From Verrucomicrobiales bacterium (GTDB lineage Bacteria; Verrucomicrobiota; Verrucomicrobiia; Limisphaerales; UBA9464), in the NCBI GenBank assembly GCA_027488845.1, contig JAIYBC010000038.1, positions 1-47,542 of the forward strand: a stretch of 47,542 bases of DNA, written 5' to 3'. Under the pieces are notes generated by a model. It did not search any database, was not told the origin of the DNA, and saw nothing but the letters and a program-made list of their open reading frames with translations. Numbering within the stretch: position 1 is the stretch's first letter; the number at the start of each line of letters is the position of its first letter. The position numbers were made by a program, and so were the translations under genes. Of the stretch, positions 6,686-23,195 are shown piece after piece.

Positions 6686-7204
6686 ATGAGCACCAGCGGA
6701 CAGCCAGAACAGCTGTGGACCAAAATCGTGGAGGACTTCCGGGAGGCCTGCATCCTCCGGAAGAACGGCCGCCACGAGGAATCCAACGAACTCCTCCAAC
6801 ACATCCTGCCGGCGGAGATCGCCGAATGGTCCCGACTGCCCGTCGCGGCCGGGGTGAACCGGAGGGCGCGGTTGGAATCGATGTTCCGTGATGAACAGCG
6901 CCGTGTGGACGACGCGTTCTTCGTCCAACGCATCGTCACCAGCCAACTCGAGGAACACATCCTCCCGAAGCTCTGCTTCATGGTCGCGGAGGAGGTCCGC
7001 GAGGCCGTCCGAAACGATGTGCGCGCCTTCGGCTTCGCCGCGTCCTCGCCGCGCAACACGCCTGCAAAGGCACCCGCTGCCGAGCGCCCCCAAACCACTT
7101 CACCCTCCCGGCCGCGCGTCCGCTTCGACGACATCCCCGGCATGATCGACTCGATCCTGCGGGACCAGGGATCCGAGACCGGACCCGGCCTGCAAGCGGC
7201 CTGA
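6686..7204 (+). CDS. Unknown protein upstream of the MamK-like actin
   Basis: A protein of 172 residues with no family that I recognise. Residues 1-110 are predicted largely helical and charged (WTKIVEDFREACILRKNGRH; DEQRRVDDAFFVQRIVTSQL; EEVREAVRNDV). A low-complexity Ala/Pro/Ser linker follows (about 117-145), then a short acidic/hydrophobic tail, RVRFDDIPGMIDSILRDQ. A folded domain plus disordered linker plus short terminal motif is a layout seen in adaptor proteins. It is followed after 96 bases by the actin gene on the same strand, so it may be a filament partner; that is inference. The start ATG has AAGGGA upstream. Confidence 0.7.
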   Translation: MSTSGQPEQLWTKIVEDFREACILRKNGRHEESNELLQHILPAEIAEWSRLPVAAGVNRRARLESMFRDEQRRVDDAFFVQRIVTSQLEEHILPKLCFMVAEEVREAVRNDVRAFGFAASSPRNTPAKAPAAERPQTTSPSRPRVRFDDIPGMIDSILRDQGSETGPGLQAA

Positions 7205-7300: not shown

Positions 7301-8470
7301 ATGCGCAGCAGCACCCTCATGCCGTCGGTGGAACCGACGGACCGCAAGGCCGCCGTCAACGGACGCGGCATCACCCCGGCCGTGGCAGAGCCGGCCCGCA
7401 GGCCGACCGCCGTGTCCACCGTCCTCGTCGGTTTCGACTGGGGAACCAACAAGTCCTGCATCCAGGTGGTGAAGCCCGGAACGGACGGGATCGCGACGAC
7501 GGTCGTCCCCACCGTCGTCGGCTACGCCAAGGATGGGATCGTCGACGGCATCCTGCCCGGTGAAGGCCGCACCTTCTTCGGCGAGGAAGCCCTGAGGTAC
7601 CGCATGCACCTGCGCCTGGTGCAGCCGATGATCGACGGCGTCATCAACGACGTCGCCGCCTCCCGCGACTTCGCCCAGCACATCCGTTCGCAGATCGCGA
7701 GCGAGACGGGCACCGAGATCCGCGCCGTGATCGGCATGCCGGCCAACGCCGAACGCGCCGCCCGTGAGAATCTCCGCCAGGCCGTGAACGGCGTCTTCGA
7801 CCGGGTCCTTCTCGTTCCCGAGCCCTTCCTCGCAGCCCTCGGCTACCGCGACGAGTCGCGCCTCGGCCAGGAAGGCTACGTGGATCCCGTCAGCAACTCC
7901 CTCTTCGTGGACATCGGCGGCGGGACCACCGACGTCTGCATGGTCCAGGGCTACTACCCGACGGCCGAGGACCAGATCAGCTTCGCGTTCGCCGGCGACA
8001 AGGTGGACGCCTTGATCGACGAGGGCATCCGCAAGACCTATCCCGACGTCCAGCTCTCCAACCTCAAGATCCGCGAGATCAAGGAGAAGCACTCCTACGT
8101 CGGCAAGGCCGAGAACCCCGTGGTCGTCTCCGTCATCGTCGGCGGCAAGATGCGCAAGCTCGACGTGACCGCCCAGATCGGCGCGGCGACGGAGGCCCTG
8201 CTGATGGAGATCTACGAGGCGGTGAAGACGCTGATCGTCCGGGCGAATCCGGACACGGTGGCGGAGCTGCTTGAGAACATCGTCCTCACCGGTGGCGGCA
8301 GCCGCATCCGGAACCTCGACAAGGAGCTTCAGCGGCTCCTGACCGAGGAAGGCTTCGAGGCACCCCGGGTCCATGTGGTGGGCGACGGGTACAAAGAATT
8401 TGTGGCCAAGGGCGCGCTCAAGGCGGCCCGTCAGGCCAAGGAGACGCAGTGGCAGCAGATCGTCGGTTGA
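7301..8470 (+). CDS. MamK-like bacterial actin
   Basis: A 389-residue member of the actin/Hsp70 ATPase superfamily. The phosphate-1 loop is GFDWGTNKS (about 45-52), phosphate-2 is VDIGGGTTD (about 203-211) and the adenosine motif is LTGGGSRI (about 329-336). From memory of the family, several blocks track the magnetosome actin MamK more closely than MreB or ParM: FGEEALRYR, QPMIDGVIND, IRAVIGMPA, VPEPFLAALGY, TAEDQISFAFAGDKVD and ENIVLTGGGSRIRNL. MamK forms cytoplasmic filaments that position magnetosomes; no other magnetosome gene is visible here. An extra 40-residue N-terminal segment precedes the fold. The ATG at 7301 follows AGGAAA closely. The neighbouring small gene is the likely partner. 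Confidence 0.85.
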   Translation: MRSSTLMPSVEPTDRKAAVNGRGITPAVAEPARRPTAVSTVLVGFDWGTNKSCIQVVKPGTDGIATTVVPTVVGYAKDGIVDGILPGEGRTFFGEEALRYRMHLRLVQPMIDGVINDVAASRDFAQHIRSQIASETGTEIRAVIGMPANAERAARENLRQAVNGVFDRVLLVPEPFLAALGYRDESRLGQEGYVDPVSNSLFVDIGGGTTDVCMVQGYYPTAEDQISFAFAGDKVDALIDEGIRKTYPDVQLSNLKIREIKEKHSYVGKAENPVVVSVIVGGKMRKLDVTAQIGAATEALLMEIYEAVKTLIVRANPDTVAELLENIVLTGGGSRIRNLDKELQRLLTEEGFEAPRVHVVGDGYKEFVAKGALKAARQAKETQWQQIVG

Positions 8471-8524
8471 ACCGGCGGTAGGCCCCGCTTCCTCCCAGAG
8501 ACATCCTCCTGGTTGCTCCTCAAA

Positions 8525-8566
8525 CCGCCGCCGTGCACCTGCCTGCGCGGCGGCGGCCTTTCCTTT
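8525..8566 (+). terminator. Possible terminator after the actin gene
   Basis: The 9-bp stem CCGCCGCCG / CGGCGGCGG (8525-8533 and 8548-8556) closes a 14-base loop and is followed by CCTTTCCTTT. The stem is strong but the T-run is interrupted. Confidence 0.4.
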
Positions 8567-8658
8567 CGGCGGCGCCGTCTTCTTACGTCCCGTCCTGCGC
8601 GAGATGCGCCTTCTGGCTTCCCCGGACGGCCGGTGTCGTCAACCTGAGGCCGGTTCCG

Positions 8659-8997
8659 ATGAGCGCCTTCCCGAATCCCTTCCAGAATCTCGACTCCAGC
8701 GGGCTTCCGCCGGGCCCACCGGACAGCGCCCTGCCACCCGCTCCCAAGAAGAGCCGCGGCCGCGTCGACATCGTGCGCGAGAAATCCGGTCGCGGCGGGA
8801 AGACGGTGACCGTGGTGAAGAACTTCGTCGGGATCGGCCTGCCCGAGAAGGAGGCCTTGGCGAAGGCCATGCAGCGGAGCTGCGGCACCGGAGGCACGGT
8901 GAAGGAAGGCCGGATCGAGATCCAAGGCGACCAACGCGAGGCGGTCGCGCGCATCCTGACCGAGGCCGGCTTCCGCCCGGTGATGGCCGGTGGATGA
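8659..8997 (+). CDS. Translation initiation factor SUI1/eIF1-family protein (YciH-like)
   Basis: A protein of 112 residues. After a Pro-rich N-terminus comes the SUI1 fold: RVDIVREKSGRGGKTVTVVK, then GLPEKEALAKAMQRSCGTGG with the conserved GTGGTVKEGRIEIQGDQR block, ending in a helix. Bacterial YciH proteins bind the small ribosomal subunit and affect start-codon selection in vitro; their cellular role is poorly defined. I chose the ATG at 8659 because the length then matches the family (about 105-115) and GAGG lies upstream. An in-frame ATG at 8533 would add a non-conserved, Arg-rich extension and overlap the putative terminator stem. Confidence 0.85.
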   Translation: MSAFPNPFQNLDSSGLPPGPPDSALPPAPKKSRGRVDIVREKSGRGGKTVTVVKNFVGIGLPEKEALAKAMQRSCGTGGTVKEGRIEIQGDQREAVARILTEAGFRPVMAGG

Positions 8998-11148: not shown

Positions 11149-14100
11149 ATGAACGAGGACATCCGAGCCCTCATCGACGGCATCCGCCGGGGCCAGTACG
11201 AGGACGCGGGCGAGAAGATCGCGCTGCTGGCGGCGGCGATGCTGGAGCAGGCGACGGACCCGGCGTTGGTGGTGCATTTGCTGCAGGCGCCGCAGGAGCC
11301 GTTGCGTCGGGCGGTGCTGGCGTTCCTCGAGGAGCGACCGGAAGCCGTGCCGATGCCGGAGATCCTGCGGCGTCTGACCGACACCAGCGAACGGGTCCGC
11401 ACCGTTCTCGCCCGGATCCTCGGCAGGATGCCGGGATCGGAGACCACGGAGGCGCTGGGGCGCCTGGCGACGGATTCCAGCTCGGAGGTAAGGGAATCGG
11501 CCGTCGAGGCGGCGGCGGGGAATCCGGCCCTGACCGACGTCCTCCTCGGAAGGCTCGCCTCGGACTCCGACTGGGCGGTCCGACAGCAGTCCGCGAAGTC
11601 GCTCGCCGGCGTCGAGATCACCCGGACGGCGACGGGACTGCTGCGGGCGCTGGGGACGGACAGCGATGCGGACGTCCGCGGCACCTGCGCGGAGCAGCTG
11701 GAGACGGCGTTGGCCGCCGGTCCCGAAGGCGGCGGAACCGCCTGGGAGGTGGACTCTGAGGTGCTGCCGGCCGCGCGAAAGCAGGTCGCCGCGATGGAAC
11801 GCGTTCCCCGCCTGAAGGCGTGGCTTACCTCGAACACCGATTCGACGGTCGATCCGAGGGAACTCGCCCGCTTCGGCACCGACCTGACGACGCAGTCCAC
11901 ATCGGGTTCGCTCGCCCGCGGCTTCCGCCTCGAACGGGCCGTGGAAACCCTGGCCGCCCGCCTGTCCTCGCCGAAGCCGCGATCCGTCGCACTGATCGGG
12001 AGGTCGGGAACCGGAAAGACGACGCTCGTCCACGAGTTGGTGCGCTTCCTCGCCCGACCCGAGAACGGCGCGTGGCGGGTGGTGAGGATGTCGCCGACCG
12101 ACTTCATGGCGGGAACCCGCTATGTCGGGGACTGGGAGACCAAGGTGGCGGAGCTGATCGAGGCGGTGCGCCGACCGCGCCGGGTGCTGCTCTACATCCC
12201 GAACCTGTCGGACCTGGCGGCGATGGGACGATGGTCCAAGTCCGATGCGAATGTCGCCACGGCCCTCGCTCCGTACCTGGAGGACGGAAGCCTGGTGATC
12301 CTGGGGGAGAGCACGCTCGACGAGTTCGAGAGGGGCCTCGGTTCCGACCTCACGCTTCGGCGGCTTTTCGATCGGGTGCTGGTGGAGGAGCCCACCGTCG
12401 AGGAGACTCGCGGAATCCTCATGGAGGTCCGCGGATCGGACGAGGCGTTGCTGGCGGATTCGGTCCTGGGTTCGCTCCAGGAAATGGGCGAGGCCTTCCT
12501 GGGGCACCTGGCTCGGCCGGGAAGCTCGGTTCCGTTGCTGAGGGCGGTCCTCGCCGCGGCCCACGAGCGGGGCCGCCCCGTCACCCGGCGGGACGTGTTG
12601 GAAACCCTTTCGGTGTCCACCGGCATCCCGGCGGACCTGCTCGACGACGCGACGCCGCTGGATCCGGCCGCGATGGCGTCCTTCTTCCAAGGCCGGATCC
12701 TGGGACAGGACGAGGCGGTCGCCGCGGTGGCGGACACCGTGACCCTGATCAAGGCCGGTTTGAACGATCCGCAGAAGCCGTTCGCCGTCCTGCTCTTCGT
12801 GGGACCGACCGGCGTGGGCAAGACCGAGCTGGCCCGGGCCCTGGCGGAATACATCTTCGGGGATCCCGCCCGGCTCCAGCGCTTCGACATGAGCGAGTTC
12901 GCCGGCCCGGATGGCTTCGTCCGACTGATCGGAGGACGCGGCGAAAACGGGCTGCTGACCGACGCGGTGACGCAGCGGCCGTTCTCCGTGGTCCTGCTGG
13001 ACGAGATCGAGAAGTCGCATCTCAACGTCTTCGACCTGCTGCTCCAGCTCTTCGACGCAGGACGGCTCACGGACGGCCGCGGGCGAACCGTCGACTTCCG
13101 TCGGACCATCGTGATCCTGACCTCGAACGTGGGAGCCGAGTCGACGTCGGCCCCACTCGGCTTCGGACGTCAGGCGGACCGTGCCTCCGCGGACGGCGAC
13201 CGGACGTTCAAGGAGTTGTCGCGGTTCTTCAGGCCCGAGTTCCTGAACCGCATCGACCGCATCGTCGAGTTCAAGGCGTTGACCCTCGAGACGGCCGAGA
13301 AGATCGCGCGTCGCGAACTGGAGCTGGTGTTGCAACGCAGCGGCATCCGGCGCCGTGGCCTCGCGGTCACGCTGTCCCCCGAGGTCAACGCGCTGCTGGT
13401 CCGCGAGGGCTACTCCCGGCAGTTCGGGGCGCGGCCGATCAAGCGGACGGTCGAGCGGTTGGCCCTCCTGCCGCTCGCCCGGGCCCTCGCCGCCGGCGGC
13501 GCGGAACCGGGAAGCCTCGTGCATCTCCATCTGCGCGACGACGCCGTTTCGGTCTCGGTCACGCGTCCGCCGGAGTCTCCGGCTGTACCTTCGTCCAAGG
13601 TCGGTGGCGGCCGGAAACGTGGTCGCAATCCGGTGGAGATGCTGGGCCGACGGATCCTGGAGCTGATGCCGCTCGCGACTCCGTTGCTGGATTCGAAGAG
13701 CCGGCTGGTGGATTCGACCCGCACGCCCGATTTCCATCGGGACGCCGTCGCCAGGGCGCGCGTGTTCGACGAGATCGGCCGCATCGACCGCTTCGCGTCG
13801 CGGATCGCCGCGGTCCGGGACGGGATCGTCCGGCTGCAGTCCGACAGCGAGACCACCGATCCGGCCGAGGCGTTGGCGGAGTTGGAGTCGGAAGTGGAGC
13901 ACCTCGAGAAGGTGGTCGTGGCCGCCGACGATCCCGCGGGATTGGCGGATGCCTTCGTCCTGATCGTGCGCGTGCAGGGCCAGGGAAACCCCATCGAGGC
14001 GGTGGACTCGCTGATGGGAACCTATCTGGGAACGGCGACGCGACGGCGCTTCGAAGGCGGGATCGTGGGAACCCTCGACGAACCACGCCAGGACGCCGCA

Positions 14101-14613
14101 CTGCTGGAGATCTCCGGCCTTGGAGCCGCGGGATTGTTCCGCAACGAGGCCGGTCTCCACGAGTTCCATCGGCGGCGGCGGACCCGCAATCCGCGCAACG
14201 GTCGGGAGGAGACGCAGGACGACTCGACGCTGGTGCGGGTCGAGGTGGTCCCGGTGCTGGGCGAACCGCCGGCGCGATTCGCCACCCTCGTCCGATTGAA
14301 GGCGGTCGAAGGCCCGCCTTCGGAACGTCTGGGAGACCGGCCCGTGTTCCGGATCACCGGCTTCCATGAGGCGAGCATCCGATCCCTTTCCCTCGATTTC
14401 CCCGGACCGAGGACGGAGGCCTTGGAGCGGGCGGCCCGCTATTTCCACGCGCTGGTCGAGTCGAAACCCGGGAGCCCGCCCGACGGCCTGATCCGGCGCT
14501 ACGACATCGGCATCGGATCCAGGATCAAGGATCTGCGGACGGGCCGGACGACGAGCCGGCTGGCGCAGTTCTTCCGGGGCCGCATCGACCTTCCGGAAGG
14601 CGCGCCGGAGTGA
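11149..14613 (+). CDS. HEAT repeats + ClpB-like double AAA+ + degenerate release factor 2-like domain
   Basis: A protein of 1154 residues. Residues about 30-215 contain HEAT-like repeats (SERVRTVLARILGRM; SSSEVRESAVEAAAGN). The first AAA+ module has Walker A GRSGTGKTT (about 284) and pore loop GTRYVGDWE, but the Walker B acidic pair is replaced (LLYIPNLSD where ClpB has FIDE). The second module is ClpB D2-like with Walker A GPTGVGKTE (552-560), Walker B VVLLDEIEKSH, FRPEFLNRID and sensor-2 GARPIKR. It lacks the GYVG pore loop (RLIGGRGENGLLTDA). No long M-domain separates them. From about 845 on it parallels peptide chain release factor 2, ending SRIKDLRTG (about 1121-1129), but GGQ and the stop-codon reading motif are absent. 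The start ATG follows GGGAAGG. A ribosome-associated remodelling role is an inference. Confidence 0.85.
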   Translation: MNEDIRALIDGIRRGQYEDAGEKIALLAAAMLEQATDPALVVHLLQAPQEPLRRAVLAFLEERPEAVPMPEILRRLTDTSERVRTVLARILGRMPGSETTEALGRLATDSSSEVRESAVEAAAGNPALTDVLLGRLASDSDWAVRQQSAKSLAGVEITRTATGLLRALGTDSDADVRGTCAEQLETALAAGPEGGGTAWEVDSEVLPAARKQVAAMERVPRLKAWLTSNTDSTVDPRELARFGTDLTTQSTSGSLARGFRLERAVETLAARLSSPKPRSVALIGRSGTGKTTLVHELVRFLARPENGAWRVVRMSPTDFMAGTRYVGDWETKVAELIEAVRRPRRVLLYIPNLSDLAAMGRWSKSDANVATALAPYLEDGSLVILGESTLDEFERGLGSDLTLRRLFDRVLVEEPTVEETRGILMEVRGSDEALLADSVLGSLQEMGEAFLGHLARPGSSVPLLRAVLAAAHERGRPVTRRDVLETLSVSTGIPADLLDDATPLDPAAMASFFQGRILGQDEAVAAVADTVTLIKAGLNDPQKPFAVLLFVGPTGVGKTELARALAEYIFGDPARLQRFDMSEFAGPDGFVRLIGGRGENGLLTDAVTQRPFSVVLLDEIEKSHLNVFDLLLQLFDAGRLTDGRGRTVDFRRTIVILTSNVGAESTSAPLGFGRQADRASADGDRTFKELSRFFRPEFLNRIDRIVEFKALTLETAEKIARRELELVLQRSGIRRRGLAVTLSPEVNALLVREGYSRQFGARPIKRTVERLALLPLARALAAGGAEPGSLVHLHLRDDAVSVSVTRPPESPAVPSSKVGGGRKRGRNPVEMLGRRILELMPLATPLLDSKSRLVDSTRTPDFHRDAVARARVFDEIGRIDRFASRIAAVRDGIVRLQSDSETTDPAEALAELESEVEHLEKVVVAADDPAGLADAFVLIVRVQGQGNPIEAVDSLMGTYLGTATRRRFEGGIVGTLDEPRQDAALLEISGLGAAGLFRNEAGLHEFHRRRRTRNPRNGREETQDDSTLVRVEVVPVLGEPPARFATLVRLKAVEGPPSERLGDRPVFRITGFHEASIRSLSLDFPGPRTEALERAARYFHALVESKPGSPPDGLIRRYDIGIGSRIKDLRTGRTTSRLAQFFRGRIDLPEGAPE

Positions 14614-14940: not shown

Positions 14941-15873
14941 TCAAGCGGCTTCGGCGGTGTCGGGAATCGGCGTCAGGCAGTCCGCGGCGCTCCGGCAAAG
15001 CCCGATGAAGGTCTCCTCCGCCAGGGTCAGGCGCCGGGCACGCCAATGGAGCACGCCCCACTCGCGTCGTGCCTTGCGCCGGCCCAGGGGCAGCGCCACC
15101 AGGGAACCGTCCCGCAGCTCCCGTTGGGCCACCCAAGGAGCCACGATGCCCACCCCGAGGTTCAGCTTAACCAACTCCTTGATCGCTTCCATGCTGCCCA
15201 ACTCGATGACCGTGTTCAGCACGATCTTCTCCTCGCGGAAGTACTCGTCGAGGATCCGCCATGTCAGGCTCTTCCGGCTGTAGACCACCAGGTTCTGCCG
15301 TGCGACCTCGGCCCTCGGGACGGAACCGGACGCGGCCCACGGATGCAGCGGCGACGCGATGAACACCAGTTCGTCGCCGAACAGATGGGTGAACTGGAAC
15401 CGCTCGTCGGCCTTCAGCTCCATGCTCAACGCCAGGTCGGCACGGTTCGACTCCAGGACCTCCGTGGCCGCCAGCGTGTCGCACGGCTCCACGCTGATGT
15501 GGCTCTGCGGGAAGCTCTCCTTGAACTCCCGCAGCACCGGCGGAAGCAACGAAACGCAAAGGGTCACCGGGGCCGCGATCCTCAGACGCCCCACGCCCCA
15601 CTTCCCCAGGCGCTCGATCCCGGACCGCGCCGAGGACATCTCCAGCAGCACCCGCTCCGCGTGCTGCAACAGATGTTCACCCGCCTGGGTCAGCAACACC
15701 TTCTTGCCCAACCTGTCCAAAAGACGACATCCGATGTCCGTTTCCAGCGCCTTCATCGAGTGGCTGACCGCGGACTGGGTCAGGAAGAGTTCCCGGGCCG
15801 TCTGCGTGAAACTCCCAGTGCGGGCAAGGATGACGAAGGCCTGTAGCTGCCTGCTGTCGAGCGGAGACTTCAT
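14941..15873 (-). CDS. LysR-family transcriptional regulator of the nitrate island
   Basis: A protein of 310 residues. The N-terminal winged helix-turn-helix is SRQLQAFVILARTGSFTQTA through FLTQSAVSHSMKALETDIG. The effector-binding domain follows (LRIAAPVTLCVSLLPPVL; NRADLALSMEL; VKLNLGVGIVAPWVAQREL). It is transcribed away from the nitrate transport and reduction genes, with 95 bases between the start codons, the standard arrangement for a LysR protein that controls its divergent neighbour. Cyanobacterial NtcB is a precedent for LysR control of nitrate assimilation; the actual inducer here is unknown. TTCATGAA, a small palindrome, lies just at the gene start and could be part of an autoregulatory site. 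Confidence 0.9.
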   Translation of the reverse strand: MKSPLDSRQLQAFVILARTGSFTQTARELFLTQSAVSHSMKALETDIGCRLLDRLGKKVLLTQAGEHLLQHAERVLLEMSSARSGIERLGKWGVGRLRIAAPVTLCVSLLPPVLREFKESFPQSHISVEPCDTLAATEVLESNRADLALSMELKADERFQFTHLFGDELVFIASPLHPWAASGSVPRAEVARQNLVVYSRKSLTWRILDEYFREEKIVLNTVIELGSMEAIKELVKLNLGVGIVAPWVAQRELRDGSLVALPLGRRKARREWGVLHWRARRLTLAEETFIGLCRSAADCLTPIPDTAEAA

Positions 15874-15968
15874 TCATGAACCCGTTTCATCGGACCGATC
15901 AAAAGGAATCGGAGCATTAGACGGGCCGGACATGTCGCAAGGGCATCGATACCGCTTAGGAAGGGCCC

Positions 15969-17078
15969 GTGACGAAAGCCACGGCATCCAGGTCCGGCGC
16001 CCAGCCCGAGGGTTCGGCGATCCGTCTCGGCTTCGTCCCTCTCAACGACTGCGCGCCGCTCGTCGTGGCGGCCGAACACGGGCTGTTCCGGCGCCGCGGG
16101 CTCCGGATCCGGCTCTGCCGTGAACTGGGCTGGGCCAGCGTCCGGGACAAGCTCACCCACGGCGAACTCGACCTCGCCCACACCCCGAGCCCGATGCCGT
16201 TCACGCTGCGCTCGGGTCCGGTGCCCGAGGACGCCGTGACCGGCCTCGTCCTGAACCTCAACGGCAACGCCATCACCCTCTCCGAGGAGCTGTGGAAGGC
16301 CGGGGTGCGGGATGCCAACACCCTCGCCCGCCACCTGCGCGGCCTCCGGAACCACGTCCCCACCTTCGGCATCGTCTCCACCCAGTCCAGCCACGGCTAC
16401 CTCCTCCGCAAATGGCTGCTCCGCGGCGGAATCAGTCCCGAGTCCTGCCGCTTCGTCGTCGTGCCGCCTCCCCAGATGGCCGGACACCTCCGCGCCGGAC
16501 ACCTCGACGGGTACTGCGCCGGCGAACCCTGGAACACCGAGGCGGTCGCCGCCGGCGTCGGCTGGATCGCGGCCACCAGCTCCTCCCTCGAACCCCTCCA
16601 TCCGGAGAAGGTCCTCACCGCCCGCGCCTCGTTCTGCCAACGCCACCACGAGGAACACCTCGCCATCATCGCCTCCCTCGTCGAGGCCTGCCGCTGGTGC
16701 GACGATCCCGCGAACCACCCGGAGATCGCCGCGCTCCTCGCCCGACGCGAGTACCTCAACCTCCCCGTCGGACTCCTCCGCGGCGGATGGAGCGGCACCG
16801 TCGACCGCGGCCACGGCCACCTCGTCCCCGACCACGAGTTCACCGTCTTCCATCGCCACGACGCCAACGAACCCTCGCCGGACAAGGCCGCCTGGGTCGT
16901 CAACAACCTGCTCGAACCCGCCTCCAGGTCCGCGTTCCCGGCCCAGTCCCTGGGCCAGGTTTTCCGCATGGACCTCCACCAGGCCGCGGTCGCCCTCGTC
17001 CGCCCCTTCCCGTCCGACTCCTTCCCGACCCAACCGCCATCCCCATCCGCCCATGCCCCTGAAAACTCCCGTCGCTGA
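15969..17078 (+). CDS. NrtA/CmpA-family nitrate-binding protein without signal peptide (NasS-like)
   Basis: A protein of 369 residues from a GTG start preceded by AGGAAGGG. The fold matches the NrtA/SsuA-type periplasmic binding proteins: IRLGFVPLNDCAPLVVAAEH, WASVRDKL, and the hallmark VPPPQMAGHLRAGHLDGYCAGEPWN. The N-terminus (MTKATASRSGAQPEGSA) has no hydrophobic or twin-arginine segment, so it probably stays in the cytoplasm. NasS, the nitrate/nitrite sensor that works with the ANTAR antiterminator NasT, has this property, but no NasT gene is seen here. The C-terminus carries about 20 low-complexity Pro/Ser residues. It overlaps the next gene by 26 bases, so it is first in the nitrate operon. 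Confidence 0.8.
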   Translation: MTKATASRSGAQPEGSAIRLGFVPLNDCAPLVVAAEHGLFRRRGLRIRLCRELGWASVRDKLTHGELDLAHTPSPMPFTLRSGPVPEDAVTGLVLNLNGNAITLSEELWKAGVRDANTLARHLRGLRNHVPTFGIVSTQSSHGYLLRKWLLRGGISPESCRFVVVPPPQMAGHLRAGHLDGYCAGEPWNTEAVAAGVGWIAATSSSLEPLHPEKVLTARASFCQRHHEEHLAIIASLVEACRWCDDPANHPEIAALLARREYLNLPVGLLRGGWSGTVDRGHGHLVPDHEFTVFHRHDANEPSPDKAAWVVNNLLEPASRSAFPAQSLGQVFRMDLHQAAVALVRPFPSDSFPTQPPSPSAHAPENSRR

Positions 17079-18318
17079 CCTCAACCGCCGCCGGTTCCTC
17101 CGCAACACCGCCACCGGCGCCCTTCTCGCCGGTCTCCCCTCCGGCTGGACCGGCAGCGTCTTCGCAGACGACTCCCCGGAATCGCCGAACGTCCGCTTCG
17201 GCATCATCGCGCTGACCGACTGCTCCCCGATCGTCGTCGCCCACGAGAAGGGGTTCTTCAAGAAGCACGGCATCCAGTCCTCCGTGTCCAAGGAGGCCAG
17301 CTGGGCCGTCATCCGCGACAAGCTCCAGACCGGCGACAACCAGGCGACCCACATGCTCATCGGCATGCCCATCGCCTCCACCATGGGCCTCGGCGGTTCC
17401 GCCAAGAAGCCCATGGTCTACCCCTGGATGCTCAACCGGAACGGCCAGGGCATCACCCTCAAGGCCGACCTGGCCGGCAAGGTGAAGGAGGACCCCAAGG
17501 CGCTGAAGTCCTACGTCGAGAAGGCCAAGGGCATCGGCGAGCCGCTCACCTTCGCGATGACCTTCCCGCCTGGCACCCACGCCATGTGGATGCGCTACTT
17601 CCTCGGCGCCGGCGGCGTGAACCCCGACAAGGACGTCAACCTCATCACCATCCCGCCGCCGCAGATGGTGGCGAACATGAAGGTCGGCAAGATGGACGGC
17701 TTCTGCGTCGGAGAGCCTTGGAACGCACGCGCCATCGCCGACAAGATCGGCTTCTCGGCCATCTCGACCCAGGACATGTGGAAGGACCATCCGGAGAAGG
17801 TCTGCGCCTTCCTCGCGGAATACGCCGACAGGAACCCCAAGACCGTGAAGGCCGTGCTCAAGGCCCTCCACGAGGCCAGCGTCTGGCTCGACGACCTGGG
17901 CAACCGGCCCGAGCAGTGCGACATCGTCAGCAAGCCGAGCTACGTCAACTGCCCGAAGGACGTCATCCTCGGACGCCTGCTCGGCGACTACGACATGGGC
18001 GACGGCCGGAAGAAGAAGGACGACGCCTACATGATCTTCAGCCAGCGCAACTGCAACTACCCGCAGCCGAAGTACGTCGCCTGGTGGCTCACCCAGTTCC
18101 GCCGCTGGGGCATGGTCTCCGGCGCACCCGACTACGCCGGCATCGCCGCCAAGGTCGCACGGACCGACCTCTACGAGGACGCCATGAAGGAGATCGGCTT
18201 CGCCCATGGCGGCCGCAGCGACGCCCCCGAAACCCTCTTCGACGGCGTCACCTTCGATCCGAAGGGCGACCTCGAGGCCTACGCCAAGGGCTTCGCCGTC
18301 CACTCGCTCAAGGGTTGA
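17053..18318 (+). CDS. nrtA: Nitrate ABC transporter substrate-binding protein (Tat-exported)
   Basis: A protein of 421 residues. A twin-arginine signal, NRRRFLRNTATGALLAGLP, ends near SVFADD. The mature part has FGIIALTDCSPIVVAHEKGF, WAVIRDKLQTGDNQATHMLIG, and the nitrate-family hallmark IPPPQMVANMKVGKMDGFCVGEPWNA. It binds nitrate (or nitrite/bicarbonate in close relatives) and delivers it to NrtB. The start at 17053 (ATG) lies inside the end of the upstream gene; the frame is open much further upstream but those codons are antisense-like shadow of the first gene, whereas the Tat signal begins just here. It is the clear paralogue of the gene at 15969. The substrate assignment rests on the adjacent reductases. 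Confidence 0.92.
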   Translation: MPLKTPVADLNRRRFLRNTATGALLAGLPSGWTGSVFADDSPESPNVRFGIIALTDCSPIVVAHEKGFFKKHGIQSSVSKEASWAVIRDKLQTGDNQATHMLIGMPIASTMGLGGSAKKPMVYPWMLNRNGQGITLKADLAGKVKEDPKALKSYVEKAKGIGEPLTFAMTFPPGTHAMWMRYFLGAGGVNPDKDVNLITIPPPQMVANMKVGKMDGFCVGEPWNARAIADKIGFSAISTQDMWKDHPEKVCAFLAEYADRNPKTVKAVLKALHEASVWLDDLGNRPEQCDIVSKPSYVNCPKDVILGRLLGDYDMGDGRKKKDDAYMIFSQRNCNYPQPKYVAWWLTQFRRWGMVSGAPDYAGIAAKVARTDLYEDAMKEIGFAHGGRSDAPETLFDGVTFDPKGDLEAYAKGFAVHSLKG

Positions 18319-18426
18319 GCCCCTCCTGACCCGACCCGACCCGGCCGCGCGTCCCAACGGGGATGCGGCCCACCGCCGCCCTGCCAAGGCGCGCGGCCGG
18401 GACAACCCGCATCGAATCCGCACGCC

Positions 18427-19266
18427 ATGAAGCTCAAGAAAGCCGTCGAAACCCTCCTCTACCCGCTCGTCGGCATCGTCGTCAGCCTGCTCGTCTGGCA
18501 GGCGATCTCCGGCGGCGTCACCACGGCGAAGTCGCCGTCCGGCGAGATGGAGGAGGTGCGGACCGGACTCGTGAAGGACCTGCCCGGTCCGGCGGTCACC
18601 TGGGAACGGACGCGGAAGTACGTCGTCGAACCGTTCGCCAAGCGCGAGGAGCTCGACCAGGGCATCCTCCGCTTCACCTGGTATTCCCTGCTCATCGTCG
18701 CCAAGGGATACTTCATCGCCATCGTCGTCGGGACGCCCGTCGGGTTCCTCCTCGGACTCTCGAGGATGTTCACCCGGATGTTCGACCCGATCATCCAGGT
18801 CCTGCGTCCGGTGTCGCCGCTCGCCTGGATGCCCCTCGGCGTCGTGCTCTTCTCCGGCGCGGGCCGCAGCGCGAACGAACTCGGCGCCCTGTTCACCATC
18901 GCCGTCTGCGCCATGTGGCCCACCGTTCTCAACACCGCCGTCGGCGTCCGCGCGATCCCCCAGGACTACCTCAACGTGGCCAGGGTCCTGAAGCTCTCCC
19001 GCACCAAGACCCTCTTCAAGATCCTGATCCCGGCGACCCTGCCGTACATGTTCACCGGATACCGGCTGAGCCTCGGCATCGCGTGGCTGGTCATCGTCGC
19101 CGTGGAGATGCTCACCGGCCGCATCGGCATCGGGAACTTCCTCTGGAACGAGTACAACAACGGCCTCTATACGAGCATCATCCTCAGCATCCTCACCATC
19201 GGCGTCGTGGGCTTCCTGCTCGACCGCGCGATGAGCCTCCTCGAGCAGCGCTTCAAGTCCATCTAG
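18427..19266 (+). CDS. nrtB: Nitrate ABC transporter permease
   Basis: A 279-residue BPD_transp_1-type permease. A first membrane span (LLYPLVGIVVSLLVWQAI) precedes a soluble stretch, then the ABC permease core. RFTWYSLLIVAKGYFIAIVV and the EAA-like coupling loop (VARVLKLSRTKTLFKILIPATLPYMFTG) are typical of NrtB/SsuC/TauC. It would form the inner-membrane channel with the two ATPases NrtC and NrtD. It follows nrtA by 108 bases. Its stop codon at 19264-19266 directly abuts the inserted inverted-repeat element, which separates it from nrtC by 444 bases. Confidence 0.92.
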   Translation: MKLKKAVETLLYPLVGIVVSLLVWQAISGGVTTAKSPSGEMEEVRTGLVKDLPGPAVTWERTRKYVVEPFAKREELDQGILRFTWYSLLIVAKGYFIAIVVGTPVGFLLGLSRMFTRMFDPIIQVLRPVSPLAWMPLGVVLFSGAGRSANELGALFTIAVCAMWPTVLNTAVGVRAIPQDYLNVARVLKLSRTKTLFKILIPATLPYMFTGYRLSLGIAWLVIVAVEMLTGRIGIGNFLWNEYNNGLYTSIILSILTIGVVGFLLDRAMSLLEQRFKSI

Positions 19267-19712
19267 GAGGATTCATGATTCCCGATTCTGGATTCCCGAT
19301 TTCGTGCCGTCCTCCGCGTCGCCGCGAAGATCCGGACCAACTCCTCCGCCTCGGAGGCCAAGGCGCGGAGCCTCTGCTCCGGGAGCAGGCCGGCTTCCGC
19401 GATCAGCTCTATCCAGAAGTGCGACTCGTCCGCCTCCTCGAGGACGATCGAGATCTTGTTGGCGAAGTCCGCACGGGACTTCGAACGGAGGGCCGAACGG
19501 TAGTTGGCCGCCACGGACGTTCCGCTGCGACAAAGCTGTTGGGCCACAACCCTTCCCCGGACCGATTTTGGCAAGGCTTCGGCGAGCCGCATCACCCTCA
19601 CTGCGAAACGCATCGTACGGTCCTTCAGTTCCTCGGAGTCCACGGAGGCACAAGGCGTCCAGGGCCTCCGGCGTTCAATCGGGAATCGGAAACCCGGAAT
19701 CAGGAATAGCAT
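19263..19712 (-). CDS. Four-helix-bundle (23S rRNA intervening-sequence/S23-type) protein inside the nrt operon
   Basis: A protein of about 149 residues from ATG 19712, or about 126 from the GTG at 19643 (VDSEELKDRTMRFAVRVMRL), which fits the usual family start better. Family hallmarks are RTMRFAVRVMRLAEALPKSV, QLCRSGTSVAANYRSALRSK, ADFANKISIVLEEADESHFW, and a final helix EAEELVRIFAATRRT. These small pentamer-forming bundles were first found in 23S rRNA intervening sequences and also occur as Avd accessory proteins of diversity-generating retroelements; their cellular role is unclear. The gene lies antisense to the nitrate operon and reads through both flanking inverted repeats; its stop overlaps the nrtB stop. 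It looks like an inserted cassette. Confidence 0.8.
   Translation of the reverse strand: MLFLIPGFRFPIERRRPWTPCASVDSEELKDRTMRFAVRVMRLAEALPKSVRGRVVAQQLCRSGTSVAANYRSALRSKSRADFANKISIVLEEADESHFWIELIAEAGLLPEQRLRALASEAEELVRIFAATRRTARNRESRIGNHESS
19271..19301 (+). repeat. Left inverted repeat flanking the four-helix-bundle gene
   Basis: A 31-base sequence starting ATTCATGATTCCCGATT and ending GGATTCCCGATT. It matches the reverse complement of 19677-19707 at 25 of 31 positions. It contains the internal direct repeat GATTCCCGATT. It begins four bases after the nrtB stop. Confidence 0.75.
19677..19707 (-). repeat. Right inverted repeat flanking the four-helix-bundle gene
   Basis: On the reverse strand it starts ATTCCTGATTCCGGG and ends CCGATTCCCGATT, pairing with 19271-19301. 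It supplies CAGGAATAGC directly before the nrtC ATG at 19711, so the AGGA of the repeat doubles as the nrtC ribosome binding site. No target-site duplication was recognised. Confidence 0.75.
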
Positions 19713-20625
19713 GCCCTTCCTCCAGCTCTCAGGCGTCTCCAAGTCCTTCGGCCCGGCCGAGGCCCGCATCGACGTCCTCCATGACATCCAACTCTCCCTC
19801 GAACGCGGCGAGATCCTCGCCGTCGTCGGCTACAGCGGCTCGGGCAAGACGACCCTGCTCTCCCTCGTCGCCGGCCTGCTCCGGCCGGACCGCGGTTCGG
19901 TGACGCTCGACGGGCGCCCCGTCACCGGTCCCGGCCCCGACCGCGGCGTCGTCTTCCAGAACTACAGCCTCCTCCCCTGGCTCACCGTCGCCGAGAACAT
20001 CGCCCTCGGCGTCGACCAGGTGTTCGCCGACCGTGACGCGTCCTGGCGCCGCCAACAGGTCGAACGCCACGTCGCCATGGTCGGCCTCGCCCACGCCGCA
20101 AACCGGCGTCCCGCCGAGCTGTCCGGCGGCATGCGCCAGCGCGTCAGCCTCGCCCGCGCCCTCGCCATGGATCCCCAGGTGCTCCTGCTCGACGAGCCCC
20201 TCGGCGCGCTCGACGCCCTCACCCGCGCCACGCTGCAGGACGAGATCGGCCGCCTTTGCCGCGACTCCGGCAAGACCGCCCTGCTCATCACCAACGACCC
20301 CGACGAGGGCATCTACCTCGCCGACCGGATCATCCCGCTCGGCGCCGGCCCGCGCGCCACGCTCGGCCCCTCCTTCAACGTGGACCTCGCACGTCCCCGG
20401 GACCGCCGAGCCATGAACCACGACCCCCGGTTCCGCGAGATCCGGAACGGCGTCGTCCAATGGATGCTCGGACCCGGCGCCCGCCAGTCGGTCACCGTCT
20501 CCCGCAAGCTGACCCTGCCCGACATCGAGCCCGAGGACCTCGACGCGCCCCGGCCGCGCCTGGGCGGAGGCCGTCGTCCGGTGCGGCGCGGCGAACAACG
20601 TCGCGAGACCGTCCAGATTCCCTGA
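19711..20625 (+). CDS. nrtC: Nitrate ABC transporter ATPase with H-loop His replaced by Asn
   Basis: A protein of 304 residues. Walker A is GYSGSGKTT, the signature is LSGGMRQRVSLARALA and Walker B is VLLLDEPLGALDALTR. The switch region reads LLITNDPDEGIYLAD: the conserved H-loop histidine is asparagine. The last 50 residues are a basic/Pro-rich tail without the NrtA-like domain that cyanobacterial NrtC carries. It is one half of a probable NrtC/NrtD heterodimer under NrtB. The start at ATG 19711 uses an AGGA inside the inverted repeat; the frame is open upstream across the inserted element, but that part is antisense to the four-helix-bundle gene. The symbol follows gene order, not domain content. 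Confidence 0.88.
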   Translation: MPFLQLSGVSKSFGPAEARIDVLHDIQLSLERGEILAVVGYSGSGKTTLLSLVAGLLRPDRGSVTLDGRPVTGPGPDRGVVFQNYSLLPWLTVAENIALGVDQVFADRDASWRRQQVERHVAMVGLAHAANRRPAELSGGMRQRVSLARALAMDPQVLLLDEPLGALDALTRATLQDEIGRLCRDSGKTALLITNDPDEGIYLADRIIPLGAGPRATLGPSFNVDLARPRDRRAMNHDPRFREIRNGVVQWMLGPGARQSVTVSRKLTLPDIEPEDLDAPRPRLGGGRRPVRRGEQRRETVQIP

Positions 20626-20649
20626 CCCAACCCGCCCCCTTTCCGGCCC

Positions 20650-21549
20650 ATGAGCCACCACGTCGAACTCTCCAACCTCACCAAGTCCTACCCGACGCCG
20701 AAGGGCCCGGCGGTCATCGTCCGCGACTTCAACCTCAACATCCGCAAGGGCGAGTTCGTGTCCCTCATCGGCCACTCGGGCTGCGGCAAGTCCACCGTCC
20801 TCTCCATGCTCGCCGGGCTCAACCCGGTCACCGCCGGCGGCATCATCCTCGCCGGCAAGGAACTCGTCGGACCCGGACCCGACCGCGGCGTCGTCTTCCA
20901 GTCGCCCAACCTCCTCCCCTGGCTCACTGCCTTCGAGAACGTGCTCCTCGGCGTGGACCAGGTCTTCTACACCGCCTCCCGGGAGGAACGCCGCGACATC
21001 GCCGAATACTACCTCACCGTGGTCGGGCTCGGCGAATCCATGCACCGGCGCCCCGCCGAGCTCTCCCAGGGCATGCGCCAACGCGTCGGCATCGCCCGCG
21101 CCTTCGCCCTCTCGCCCAAGATGCTCCTGCTCGACGAGCCGTTCGGCATGCTCGACTCGCTCACCCGGTTCGAGCTCCAGGCGGTCCTCATGGAGCTTTG
21201 GGCCCGAAACAACATCACGGCGCTCATGGTCACCCACGACGTCGACGAGGCGCTCTACCTCAGCGACCGGATCGTGATGATGACCAACGGTCCCGAGGCG
21301 TTCGTCGGAGAGATCCTCGAGATACCATGGGAACGTCCCCGCGACCGGCGGCAGGTCCTGGAACATCCGGACTACTACCGTCTGCGCGAACACCTCATCG
21401 GCTTCCTCAACGTCCGGGCCTACACCCTCAAGGGCCTGACGCCTCCGGGCGGCGACGCCGGACACGGTCCCGCGGAACCCGCCCCGAAGGCCACCGCACC
21501 CAAGCCGACCGAGCCGGCTCCCATCCAACTCGAGGCGCTCGCCGCCTGA
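20650..21549 (+). CDS. nrtD: Nitrate ABC transporter ATPase
   Basis: A protein of 299 residues with a complete ABC ATPase: Walker [11 protein letters not shown]-loop [13 protein letters not shown], signature [17 protein letters not shown], Walker [17 protein letters not shown] and H-loop [15 protein letters not shown]. Conserved [10 protein letters not shown] in this and the preceding gene shows they are close paralogues. The C-terminus has a Pro/Ala-rich tail of about 40 residues. It starts 24 bases after nrtC. As the intact partner, it probably supplies the main catalytic site of the pair. Confidence 0.92.
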
Positions 21550-21626
21550 CAGGCTTCCCCAGAATCCCGGATCCCCGAACCCAACCAGCAACCCGACTCC
21601 CCCAACCCTCCGCAACCCACAACACC

Positions 21627-23195
21627 ATGCCATCACATCGACTCCCCGGCCTCGTCGCCCCGCTGCTCCTCGCCGCAGCCGTCCAATCCGCCCTCGGCAA
21701 CGACTGGACCGACGTCGGCTTCACCTCCCCGCTGGCCCCGACGCCCGGCTACCTCAACGAGTGGCTGCGCAAGGACGATCCGTACATGAACTCCTGGAAC
21801 GTCGGCGTCCTGTACTGGGGACGCTACGAGTCCAAGCAGAACGGCGGCTTCGTCGGCCCCGGCTCGCTCGCCGACTTCCGCCGGGATGTCGACAACGACA
21901 ACAGCTACTACCTCCAGCGCGTCGTTCCCCGGATCGGCTACACCGACAAGTGGTTCGAGGTCTTCGTGCAGGGACGTTCCTCCACCGCCACCGGCGACGA
22001 CCGTTCGTCCACCGCCAACGGCACGGTCAACGTGAACACCAACGGCGTCGTCACCTCCTCCGGCCCGACCGGCCGCGGTTCCAGCCCGGAGTCCGACGGA
22101 CCCATCGACCTCAACCAGGCCTACGTTTCCATCGGCAACCACAAGGAGTTCCCCGTCTCCCTCAAGCTCGGACGCCAGGAGCTGGTGCTCGGCGAGCAGC
22201 GCATCGTCGGCCCGCTCCTCTGGAACAACATCGGACGCCAGTGGGACGCCGCGAAGATGCGCTGGCAGAACCGCTGGTTCGCCGCCGAGGCCTGGAGCTC
22301 GCTGGTCGTGATGCCCGACGACAACGCCTTCAACAAGTCGAACAACAAGGAGGCGTTCTCCGGGCTCCAGATCACCACGAAGCAGCTCCCGAAGCTGTGG
22401 AGCGAGTTCTACCTGCTCGCCCGCAACGTGGGCCGCGGCGCCAACTCCGGCACCCGCAACAGCACGCCGCCGCCGTTCCGTCCGCCCGAGGCCCAGGACG
22501 TCTACACCGCCGGGACCTACCTCCGGAACTCCACCAACGACTGGCAGAACGTGGATTTCGGCGTCCAGGCCTACTACCAGTTCGGCAACTTCGCCGACTT
22601 CCGCGAGGCCGGCGGCAACGGTCCGCGTCGCGACCACAGCGCCTGGGCGGTCATCGGATCCGGCGGCTACACCTGGAAGGAATCGGCCCTCACGCCCTAC
22701 CTCGGCGCCGAGTACTCCTACGCGAGCGGCGACGGCAACCCGAACGACGGCAAGCACAACACCTTCGTCCACCTCTATCCCACCGGACACCTGTTCTACG
22801 GCTTCGCCGACTTCGCCTCGCTGCAGAACCTCCACAACATCCGGCTCCGCAGCGCGATCAACCCCACCGCGCGCCTCAAGCTGATGCTCGAGGGACACCT
22901 CAAGTGGCTCGATTCGGTCGACGACAACTTCTACAACGTGGCCGGACTCCCCCGCGGCGGCGTCGTGTACCAGGGTGCCGCGGCCCGCGGCACCGGCTAC
23001 GGCATCAACCCCGACGCCGGCTCCTTCGTCGGCACCGAGATCGACCTCGTCGCCCAGTGGCGGATGAACAAGTTCACCACCATCGAGGCCGCCTACTGCC
23101 ACTTCTTCCGCGGCGACTACATCAAGGACTCCCTCGCGAAGTCCGGATCCCAGGACGCCGACTACGTCTACGCCCAGGTCCAGGTCCAGTTCTAG
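21627..23195 (+). CDS. Outer-membrane porin, [18 protein letters not shown], for nitrate uptake
   Basis: A protein of 522 residues. It starts with a Sec signal (LVAPLLLAAAVQSALGNDW) and continues with alternating aromatic beta strands: YYLQRVVPRIGYTDKWFEVFVQGR, the family-typical LKLGRQELVLGEQRIVG, and a C-terminal strand ending YVYAQVQVQF with the terminal Phe of outer-membrane barrels. The pattern fits the [14 protein letters not shown]/OprD-like barrel family. Co-location between nrtD and nitrite reductase suggests passage of nitrate or nitrite across the outer membrane; this is inference from context. The ATG at 21627 is chosen because the signal peptide begins there; the frame is open far upstream as shadow. 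Confidence 0.8.
   Translation: MPSHRLPGLVAPLLLAAAVQSALGNDWTDVGFTSPLAPTPGYLNEWLRKDDPYMNSWNVGVLYWGRYESKQNGGFVGPGSLADFRRDVDNDNSYYLQRVVPRIGYTDKWFEVFVQGRSSTATGDDRSSTANGTVNVNTNGVVTSSGPTGRGSSPESDGPIDLNQAYVSIGNHKEFPVSLKLGRQELVLGEQRIVGPLLWNNIGRQWDAAKMRWQNRWFAAEAWSSLVVMPDDNAFNKSNNKEAFSGLQITTKQLPKLWSEFYLLARNVGRGANSGTRNSTPPPFRPPEAQDVYTAGTYLRNSTNDWQNVDFGVQAYYQFGNFADFREAGGNGPRRDHSAWAVIGSGGYTWKESALTPYLGAEYSYASGDGNPNDGKHNTFVHLYPTGHLFYGFADFASLQNLHNIRLRSAINPTARLKLMLEGHLKWLDSVDDNFYNVAGLPRGGVVYQGAAARGTGYGINPDAGSFVGTEIDLVAQWRMNKFTTIEAAYCHFFRGDYIKDSLAKSGSQDADYVYAQVQVQF

Follow-up and report, generated by a model that had tools for sequence, protein, structure and literature searches.

A Clp-type double AAA+ protein with a release factor 2-like tail that lacks GGQ and SPF

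In eukaryotic ribosome quality control, Vms1 is paired with CDC48 (PMC6514570). Clp ATPases dock on ClpP through a (L/I/V)-G-(F/L) tripeptide (PMC8745299), and ClpC is told from ClpB by an LGF loop and by the length of the M-domain (PMC10149685). Here we describe a gene in a contig of 47,542 nucleotides from a Verrucomicrobiales bacterium (JAIYBC010000038.1, named the window), whose product joins two Clp-type AAA+ modules (D1 and D2) to a tail that resembles peptide chain release factor 2 (RF2). The gene is a single intact open reading frame (ORF) of 1154 residues, located exactly where a preliminary description made from the sequence had placed it, and its start agrees with the MN(D/E)(D/E)I start of its relatives. 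That description had proposed a ClpB-type unfoldase, preceded by HEAT repeats and followed by an RF2-like domain without GGQ and the stop-codon-reading motif, and had suggested that such a protein might be tethered to the ribosomal A site as a translation or nascent-chain quality-control factor.

11149–14613, + strand: the whole gene, in the order HEAT repeats, D1, D2, linker and RF2-like tail (from the ORF and the relatives)

The tail is almost certainly a homologue of the class-I release factors. A profile of six tails (A2) was searched blind against 387 genomes of the same phylum and matched 283 of them at an E-value threshold of 1e-4, with a best E-value of 4e-15 apart from its own gene. 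All 29 inspected best-match loci other than its own were GGQ-bearing release factors; SPF was present in 28 of them, and the remaining one was of RF1 type. The same profile also matches 30 RF2 loci that were found separately, and its longest alignments cover the model from position 2 or 3 up to position 313 of 319. Against solved structures, 38 of the 39 matches of the six-tail profile at E ≤0.01 were release factors (best RF2 structure, E 6.3e-19; best RF1, E 4.2e-11); the lone other match was a GCN4 construct with an E-value of 0.0039. Among 252 decoys scored with the tail profile, the best reached 0.27. In the reverse direction, a hidden Markov model of 58 RF2s recognized the family members L015 (E 2.4e-13), L016 (3.4e-10), L018 (4.4e-9), L004 (1.5e-7) and L017 (0.0028), and the window protein at 0.015 only, with the best of 252 decoys at 6.5. 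Profile-to-profile alignment by hhalign of the six tails with the 58 RF2s gave 98.8% and an E-value of 1e-16 over 299 columns, against 0.3% and 0.4% for the reversed controls; with nine tails the values were 99.0% and 2.3e-18, against 0.3%.

The predicted structure of the tail agrees with the profiles. The AlphaFold2 model, for which the window tail was aligned with the sequences of five relatives, reached a best predicted local distance difference test (pLDDT) of 80.5 and a predicted template modelling score (pTM) of 0.79, the five models ranging from 80.5 down to 47.2 in pLDDT. All 50 listed Foldseek matches of this model (E ≤0.001) are RF1/RF2-type release factors, mitochondrial release factors or PrfH, the last at rank 50. 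The model superposes on E. coli RF2 (1gqe) over 301 residues with a Z-score of 21.1 and a root-mean-square deviation of 6.7, and on pre-accommodated RF2 (5mdw) over 207 residues at 3.3 angstrom, and unrelated chains begin at Z 6.5. An unrelated fold, or a match confined to the segment SRIKDLRTG, had been set beforehand as grounds for giving up the assignment; the fold obtained is that of a release factor, and the likeness to RF2 covers the entire tail of about 300 residues, so the full RF2 layout first proposed for this region is borne out.

A single sequence is of little help by itself. The window protein alone matches PCRF at an E-value of 0.035, under the Pfam cut-off, and the NCBIfam model for prfB (TIGR00020) at 0.0011; a phmmer search against solved structures returned four matches at E up to 1, none of them a release factor, and in its own genome the window tail had no match other than itself at E up to 1, the resident RF2 gene being missed. 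Such subthreshold, marginal or negative results are what one would expect if the likeness came from chance or from short motifs alone, but the 29 GGQ-bearing loci, the failing reversed controls and the high Z-score speak otherwise; the profile, reversed-control and structure tests together rule this explanation out for practical purposes. The tail scores of the six-tail profile also favour RF2 over RF1, and we consider it probable that the tail derives from RF2 rather than from RF1 or an older branch.

The tail and the linker before it comprise the following features.

13549–13683, + strand: fast-evolving linker, residues 801–845 (Nei-Gojobori omega 0.62)
13684–14592, + strand: RF2-like tail, residues ~846–1148, with helical domain 1, PCRF-like domain 2, shortened domain 3 and domain 4 (profiles and model)
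14167–14226, + strand: stop-codon-reading site, a basic loop, longer by an insertion of six residues, in place of SPF (alignment)
14302–14346, + strand: GGQ-loop site, where the window protein has AVEGPPSERLGDRPV opposite the GGQ region of RF2 (alignment)
14518–14544, + strand: SRIKDLRTG, a conserved domain-4 segment that is present in E. coli RF2 too (alignment)

Both motifs that serve termination are missing, as had been noticed at the outset: GGQ and SPF are each absent from all nine tails, and the one GGQ found in a family protein (G458) lies inside the AAA+ part. The six-residue insertion at the SPF site is shortened in L018, and a basic loop of the form (R/K)xG(R/K)E occupies the codon-tip site in 7/9 tails. 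To describe the remaining conservation, we took the columns that are at least 90% conserved in 20 RF2s (n = 128) and counted a column as kept when at least five of the nine tails carry the RF2 residue. By this measure 27/128 columns are kept: one of 13 around SPF, 3/34 in domain 3, 11/39 in domain 2, 10/31 in the last part of domain 4 and 2/11 in domain 1. The SPF surroundings and domain 3 together keep 4/47 columns versus 23/81 elsewhere (Fisher p 0.007, for a split chosen after the alignment had been seen), and a slightly different RF2 set gave 3/42 versus 21/76.

As the main rival to the ribosome-docking mechanism set out below, the fold may have been reused for protein binding or oligomerisation away from ribosomes, in a Clp-like remodeller of some other client. 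The loss of both ribosome-active motifs in every tail, the small number of RF2-conserved columns kept, the absence of conserved neighbours among 14 compared regions and the long branch of the tails apart from RF1 and RF2 would all fit such reuse. It is at odds with the basic loop that is still found at the codon-tip site in most tails, and with helical domain 1 and domain 3, for which the prediction still shows the arrangement of a release factor. On balance we regard this reuse as a serious possibility, though a doubtful one.

The tail is maintained by selection. In a Nei-Gojobori comparison of one pair, the window protein and L017 (G005), omega was 0.135 over the tail, 0.089 over its last 119 residues and 0.090 in D2, and the reading frame of the tail is kept open in members that are 45–57% identical. 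Judged by these rates, the tail is under purifying selection. A functionless, decaying relic of a fusion might explain why the tail is 19% identical to RF2 in the two best Foldseek matches, but a relic would hardly show so low an omega, in its last 119 residues as low as that of D2, with its frame open in such divergent members, and we consider this explanation very improbable.

The motor part and the region before it are made up as follows.

11149–11718, + strand: N-terminal HEAT repeats, residues ~1–190 (Pfam HEAT_2, E 2.1e-14; helical repeats in the model, pLDDT 64–92 per ten residues)
11998–12021, + strand: D1 Walker A, GRSGTGKT (alignment)
12103–12138, + strand: D1 pore-1 loop, FMAGTRYVGDWE, with the aromatic residue kept in 10/10 copies covering the site (alignment)
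12178–12216, + strand: D1 Walker B position, RRVLLYIPNLSDL, with the acidic pair lost in 10/10 copies covering the site (alignment)
12802–12825, + strand: D2 Walker A, GPTGVGKT (alignment)
12922–12963, + strand: D2 pore-loop site, RLIGGRGENGLLTD, with GYVG gone in 11/11 copies and a gap of six residues against ClpB and ClpC (alignment)
12988–13008, + strand: D2 Walker B, VVLLDEI (alignment)
13156–13164, + strand: LGF tripeptide, residues 670–672, at the ClpP-docking loop position, aligned with VGF of ClpC and with the IGL that a ClpB chimera has from ClpA
13228–13257, + strand: D2 FRPEFLNRID, which we take to hold the arginine finger (alignment)
13426–13446, + strand: D2 GARPIKR, presumably the sensor-2 element (alignment)

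In the window protein, Pfam places AAA_2 at residues 544–704 and ClpB_D2-small at 711–792, with a weaker AAA module before both. No Clp N-terminal domain occurs among the 25 of 53 Pfam rows listed for the protein. The HEAT repeats that had been assigned to the N-terminus hold for the window protein but not for the whole family, as L016 and L018 have none and begin at D1, both of them near contig ends; no member lacks the tail and two lack the HEAT repeats, in a set of members partly collected by their tails. The two lesions first noticed in the window protein, the lost acidic pair of D1 and the lost aromatic pore loop of D2, proved to be general, being present in every copy that covers the respective site. 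We also considered a defence system: 12 of the 13 PADLOC matches to anti-phage components fall on the generic AAA+ part, and the one match beyond this core is a weak row on the HEAT part (WGR_XIII, E 0.0056), so this idea was rejected.

The assignment of the motor to the ClpB type did not survive comparison. The top NCBIfam rows are ClpB and ClpA, with ClpB scoring best of the Clp models, and both lie far under the cut-off. The spacing between the two P-loops is 268–269 residues in the seven family members measured (window protein, 268), versus 402–406 in six ClpB-like rows, with 283 in the seventh (L094), and 335–337 in six ClpC-like rows, with 283 in L025; the spacing that an M-domain would bring is thus missing. 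The tripeptide at the docking loop reads LGF in seven of 11 copies and VGF in two, and it has no counterpart in the aligned ClpB sequences or in the seven ClpB-like rows. In a quick tree of 27 rows without bootstrap, the rows fell into three groups, labelled by us, of seven family members, 14 Clp rows and six paralogue rows, with a Shimodaira–Hasegawa-like approximate likelihood ratio of 100 each for the family clade and the Clp clade. Judging from this tree, the AAA+ part forms its own clade, distinct from the sampled ClpB-, ClpC- and ClpA-like rows. The row with the exceptional ClpB-like spacing (L094:14299-16530) is itself a Clp protein that groups with the ClpBs and has no docking tripeptide.

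The docking tripeptide raises the possibility of a protease partner, which the preliminary description had not foreseen. Genes for ClpP, a ClpB-like and a ClpC-like protein occur in the same genome as the window gene; the ClpC-like protein (L110) deviates from the (L/I/V)G(F/L) that is usual at the ClpP-docking loop, with MGF instead, and the genome's own ClpB has no docking tripeptide. We put a ClpP partnership of the fusion protein at slightly below even. The tripeptide, present as (L/V)GF in nine of the 11 copies, would also serve a decoy, in which the arm attracts partners of RF2, such as RF3 or ArfA-type rescue adaptors, and the ring removes or degrades them and so tunes termination or rescue. 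Retention of the fold after the loss of both motifs would suit this proposal too, but no candidate partner was identified, and we consider it improbable.

Eleven genomes with the fusion were found in total, a count that is not a census. The tail was recovered at E ≤1e-20 in 6/50 genomes of the same taxonomic family, while in the 387-genome sample of the phylum its own genome alone reached that score. One of 292 genomes in the phylum of L018 and one of 297 in that of L016 matched, each being the query genome itself, and L015 with two genomes from another search of 293 genomes complete the eleven. The metagenome bins that contain L016 and L018 bear the labels Acidobacteria and Obscuribacterales, and for their placement misbinning and transfer are indistinguishable. 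Downstream of the L018 family member lies a gene for a TraC/TraG-type conjugation ATPase (L018:3804-6629). A mobile or viral origin was considered and rejected: plasmids gave no match to the window tail and phages none to the L015 tail, and among viral contigs 113 stretches fit a pattern and none was confirmed.

Divergent Clp-like double AAA+ proteins are encoded in tandem and in the same order at L092:8423-17274 and L093:7814-14558, with a D2 lacking GYVG where it was read. One of them is matched at E 1e-85 in 13/293 genomes, in two of which (G1091 and G1133) the match is to members of the window family. An hmmsearch with the tail profile found nothing in these paralogues (L092, L093 and their kin). 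The two groups of their C-terminal regions, compared without the window-family members L135 and L136, scored 69% and 65% against a mixed profile of RF2 and tails (reversed, 1.2% and 0.4%), and 60% and 7% against RF2 alone (reversed, 0.1% and 1.4%). These values are suggestive, and the C-terminal regions of the paralogues may be decayed release-factor-like domains.

The window gene is flanked on the opposite strand by a radical-SAM gene upstream (Radical_SAM_N), presumably YgiQ-like, and by a LysR gene downstream. A conserved operon was rejected: among 14 regions compared, with near-identical ones left out, no adjacent neighbour was shared by two regions. Outside the fusion gene, 11 ORF pairs match at E 1e-8 among these regions, ten of which involve ORFs of window 19504-21720, L107 or L092 that resemble or overlap one ABC-type ATPase, a label that is our reading of the L092 ORF. 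Elsewhere in the window, an MreB/actin-like gene and, behind it in the same orientation, a SUI1-domain gene are present (7301-8997), and before them stands an ORF of 172 residues (6686-7204) that has no Pfam match at E 1e-6 and is overlapped by ORFs on the opposite strand. On the other side, the LysR regulator is oriented divergently to genes for an NMT1-like substrate-binding protein and an ABC-type permease (14941-19266), with a long ORF between them (16312-18318).

Beyond the release-factor-like nature of the tail, all that follows is what we infer. The scaffold of the tail is selected while the parts for reading and cutting are gone, and its simplest use would be to bring the ring to the A or factor site of the ribosome. 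In the mechanism that we propose, the protein would assemble into a hexamer whose D1 modules bind ATP but do not hydrolyse it, the ATP-bound ring still gripping through the D1 pore loop, and the ATPase activity would come from D2. The arms that resemble a release factor, on their flexible linkers of 45 residues, would dock the ring at the A/factor site, where a docked arm would neither read a stop codon nor release a peptide. On the ribosome, the N-terminal domain of a release-factor module faces outward, and because the linker enters at this domain the ring could stay outside. ATP use would then remodel or extract the cargo held, which could be a stalled factor, a nascent chain or a ribosomal protein, and the LGF loop suggests that extracted cargo may be delivered to ClpP. 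We give ribosome docking an even chance. The combined mechanism, a ribosome-docked ClpC-like remodeller with a release-factor scaffold arm devoid of termination chemistry and possible delivery to ClpP, is our tentative preference, at somewhat less than even.

Several observations weigh against this mechanism. The share of RF2-conserved columns kept is small, and in a quick tree of seven tails, 17 RF2s and eight RF1s (32 rows) the tails form a third group on a long branch outside both release factor groups. No conserved gene neighbour pointing to translation is present among the compared regions. Two of the 11 copies deviate at the docking tripeptide (LAF in G458 and TGF in G1133), and the full-length model is poor (pLDDT 61.6, pTM 0.33), with pLDDT below 50 at the LGF-bearing loop, and was used for the HEAT region alone. 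The combined loss of the D1 Walker B pair and the D2 pore loop argues against a strong processive unfoldase and makes a weaker remodeller likelier. In ClpA and ClpC, the C-terminal side of D2 faces ClpP, and six C-terminal arms might block the access of ClpP in the fusion protein. The lost pore loop and the possible clash of the arms weigh in particular against a classic ClpCP-like protease.

The modules of the protein are known, and their union and this Clp clade appear to be new. We found no published description of a fusion of a Clp or other AAA+ protein to a release factor in the open literature, and 'ClpB' is absent from the main text of a review of the release-factor family (PMC6514570). 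The tail shares with RF2 (prfB, TIGR00020) its fold and layout over about 300 residues and SRIKDLRTG, but belongs to a fusion protein, has neither GGQ nor SPF, carries a shortened domain 3 and is placed behind two AAA+ modules. The motor resembles ClpC and ClpA in its two AAA+ modules, in the (L/V)GF at the docking loop of most copies and in a P-loop spacing near that of L025, and differs from them in the lost D1 Walker B and D2 GYVG, the N-terminal HEAT repeats, the release-factor tail and its separate clade. With ClpB it shares the top NCBIfam Clp score, far below the cut-off, and it departs from ClpB in the much shorter spacing, the docking tripeptide and the lesions of pore loop and Walker B. 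PrfH, a weaker structural neighbour of the tail model (Z ~9), retains the catalytic glutamine and has no domain 1 (PMC6514570). Dom34 and the inactive baeRF-1 families are likewise relatives of release factors without the catalytic glutamine, but they belong to the aeRF-1 superfamily, and an AAA+ fusion is not mentioned where that review treats them (PMC6514570).

The fusion brings together two well-studied kinds of protein, a Clp-type motor and a release factor, in a rare combination, and it shows a termination factor converted to a non-catalytic part. If the arm docks on ribosomes, this would be a bacterial machine in which an AAA+ motor is coupled directly to the ribosome, with ClpP perhaps joined as well, and in which no tagging is needed. 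The fullest version is unlikely: the protein would be the first AAA+ motor known to carry an arm for docking on ribosomes, made from a dead release factor, and it would reach into the A/factor site of bacterial ribosomes that have stalled and pass its extracted cargo on to ClpP, as a one-protein counterpart of Vms1-Cdc48. Vms1/ANKZF1 with Cdc48 is alike in that a release-factor-like protein is paired with an AAA+ motor, and unlike in that the two are separate proteins, the former of the aeRF-1 superfamily, with Vms1 being described as the peptidyl hydrolase of its pathway (PMC6514570). If the proposed mechanism is true, one polypeptide would do what eukaryotes achieve by pairing Vms1 with Cdc48.

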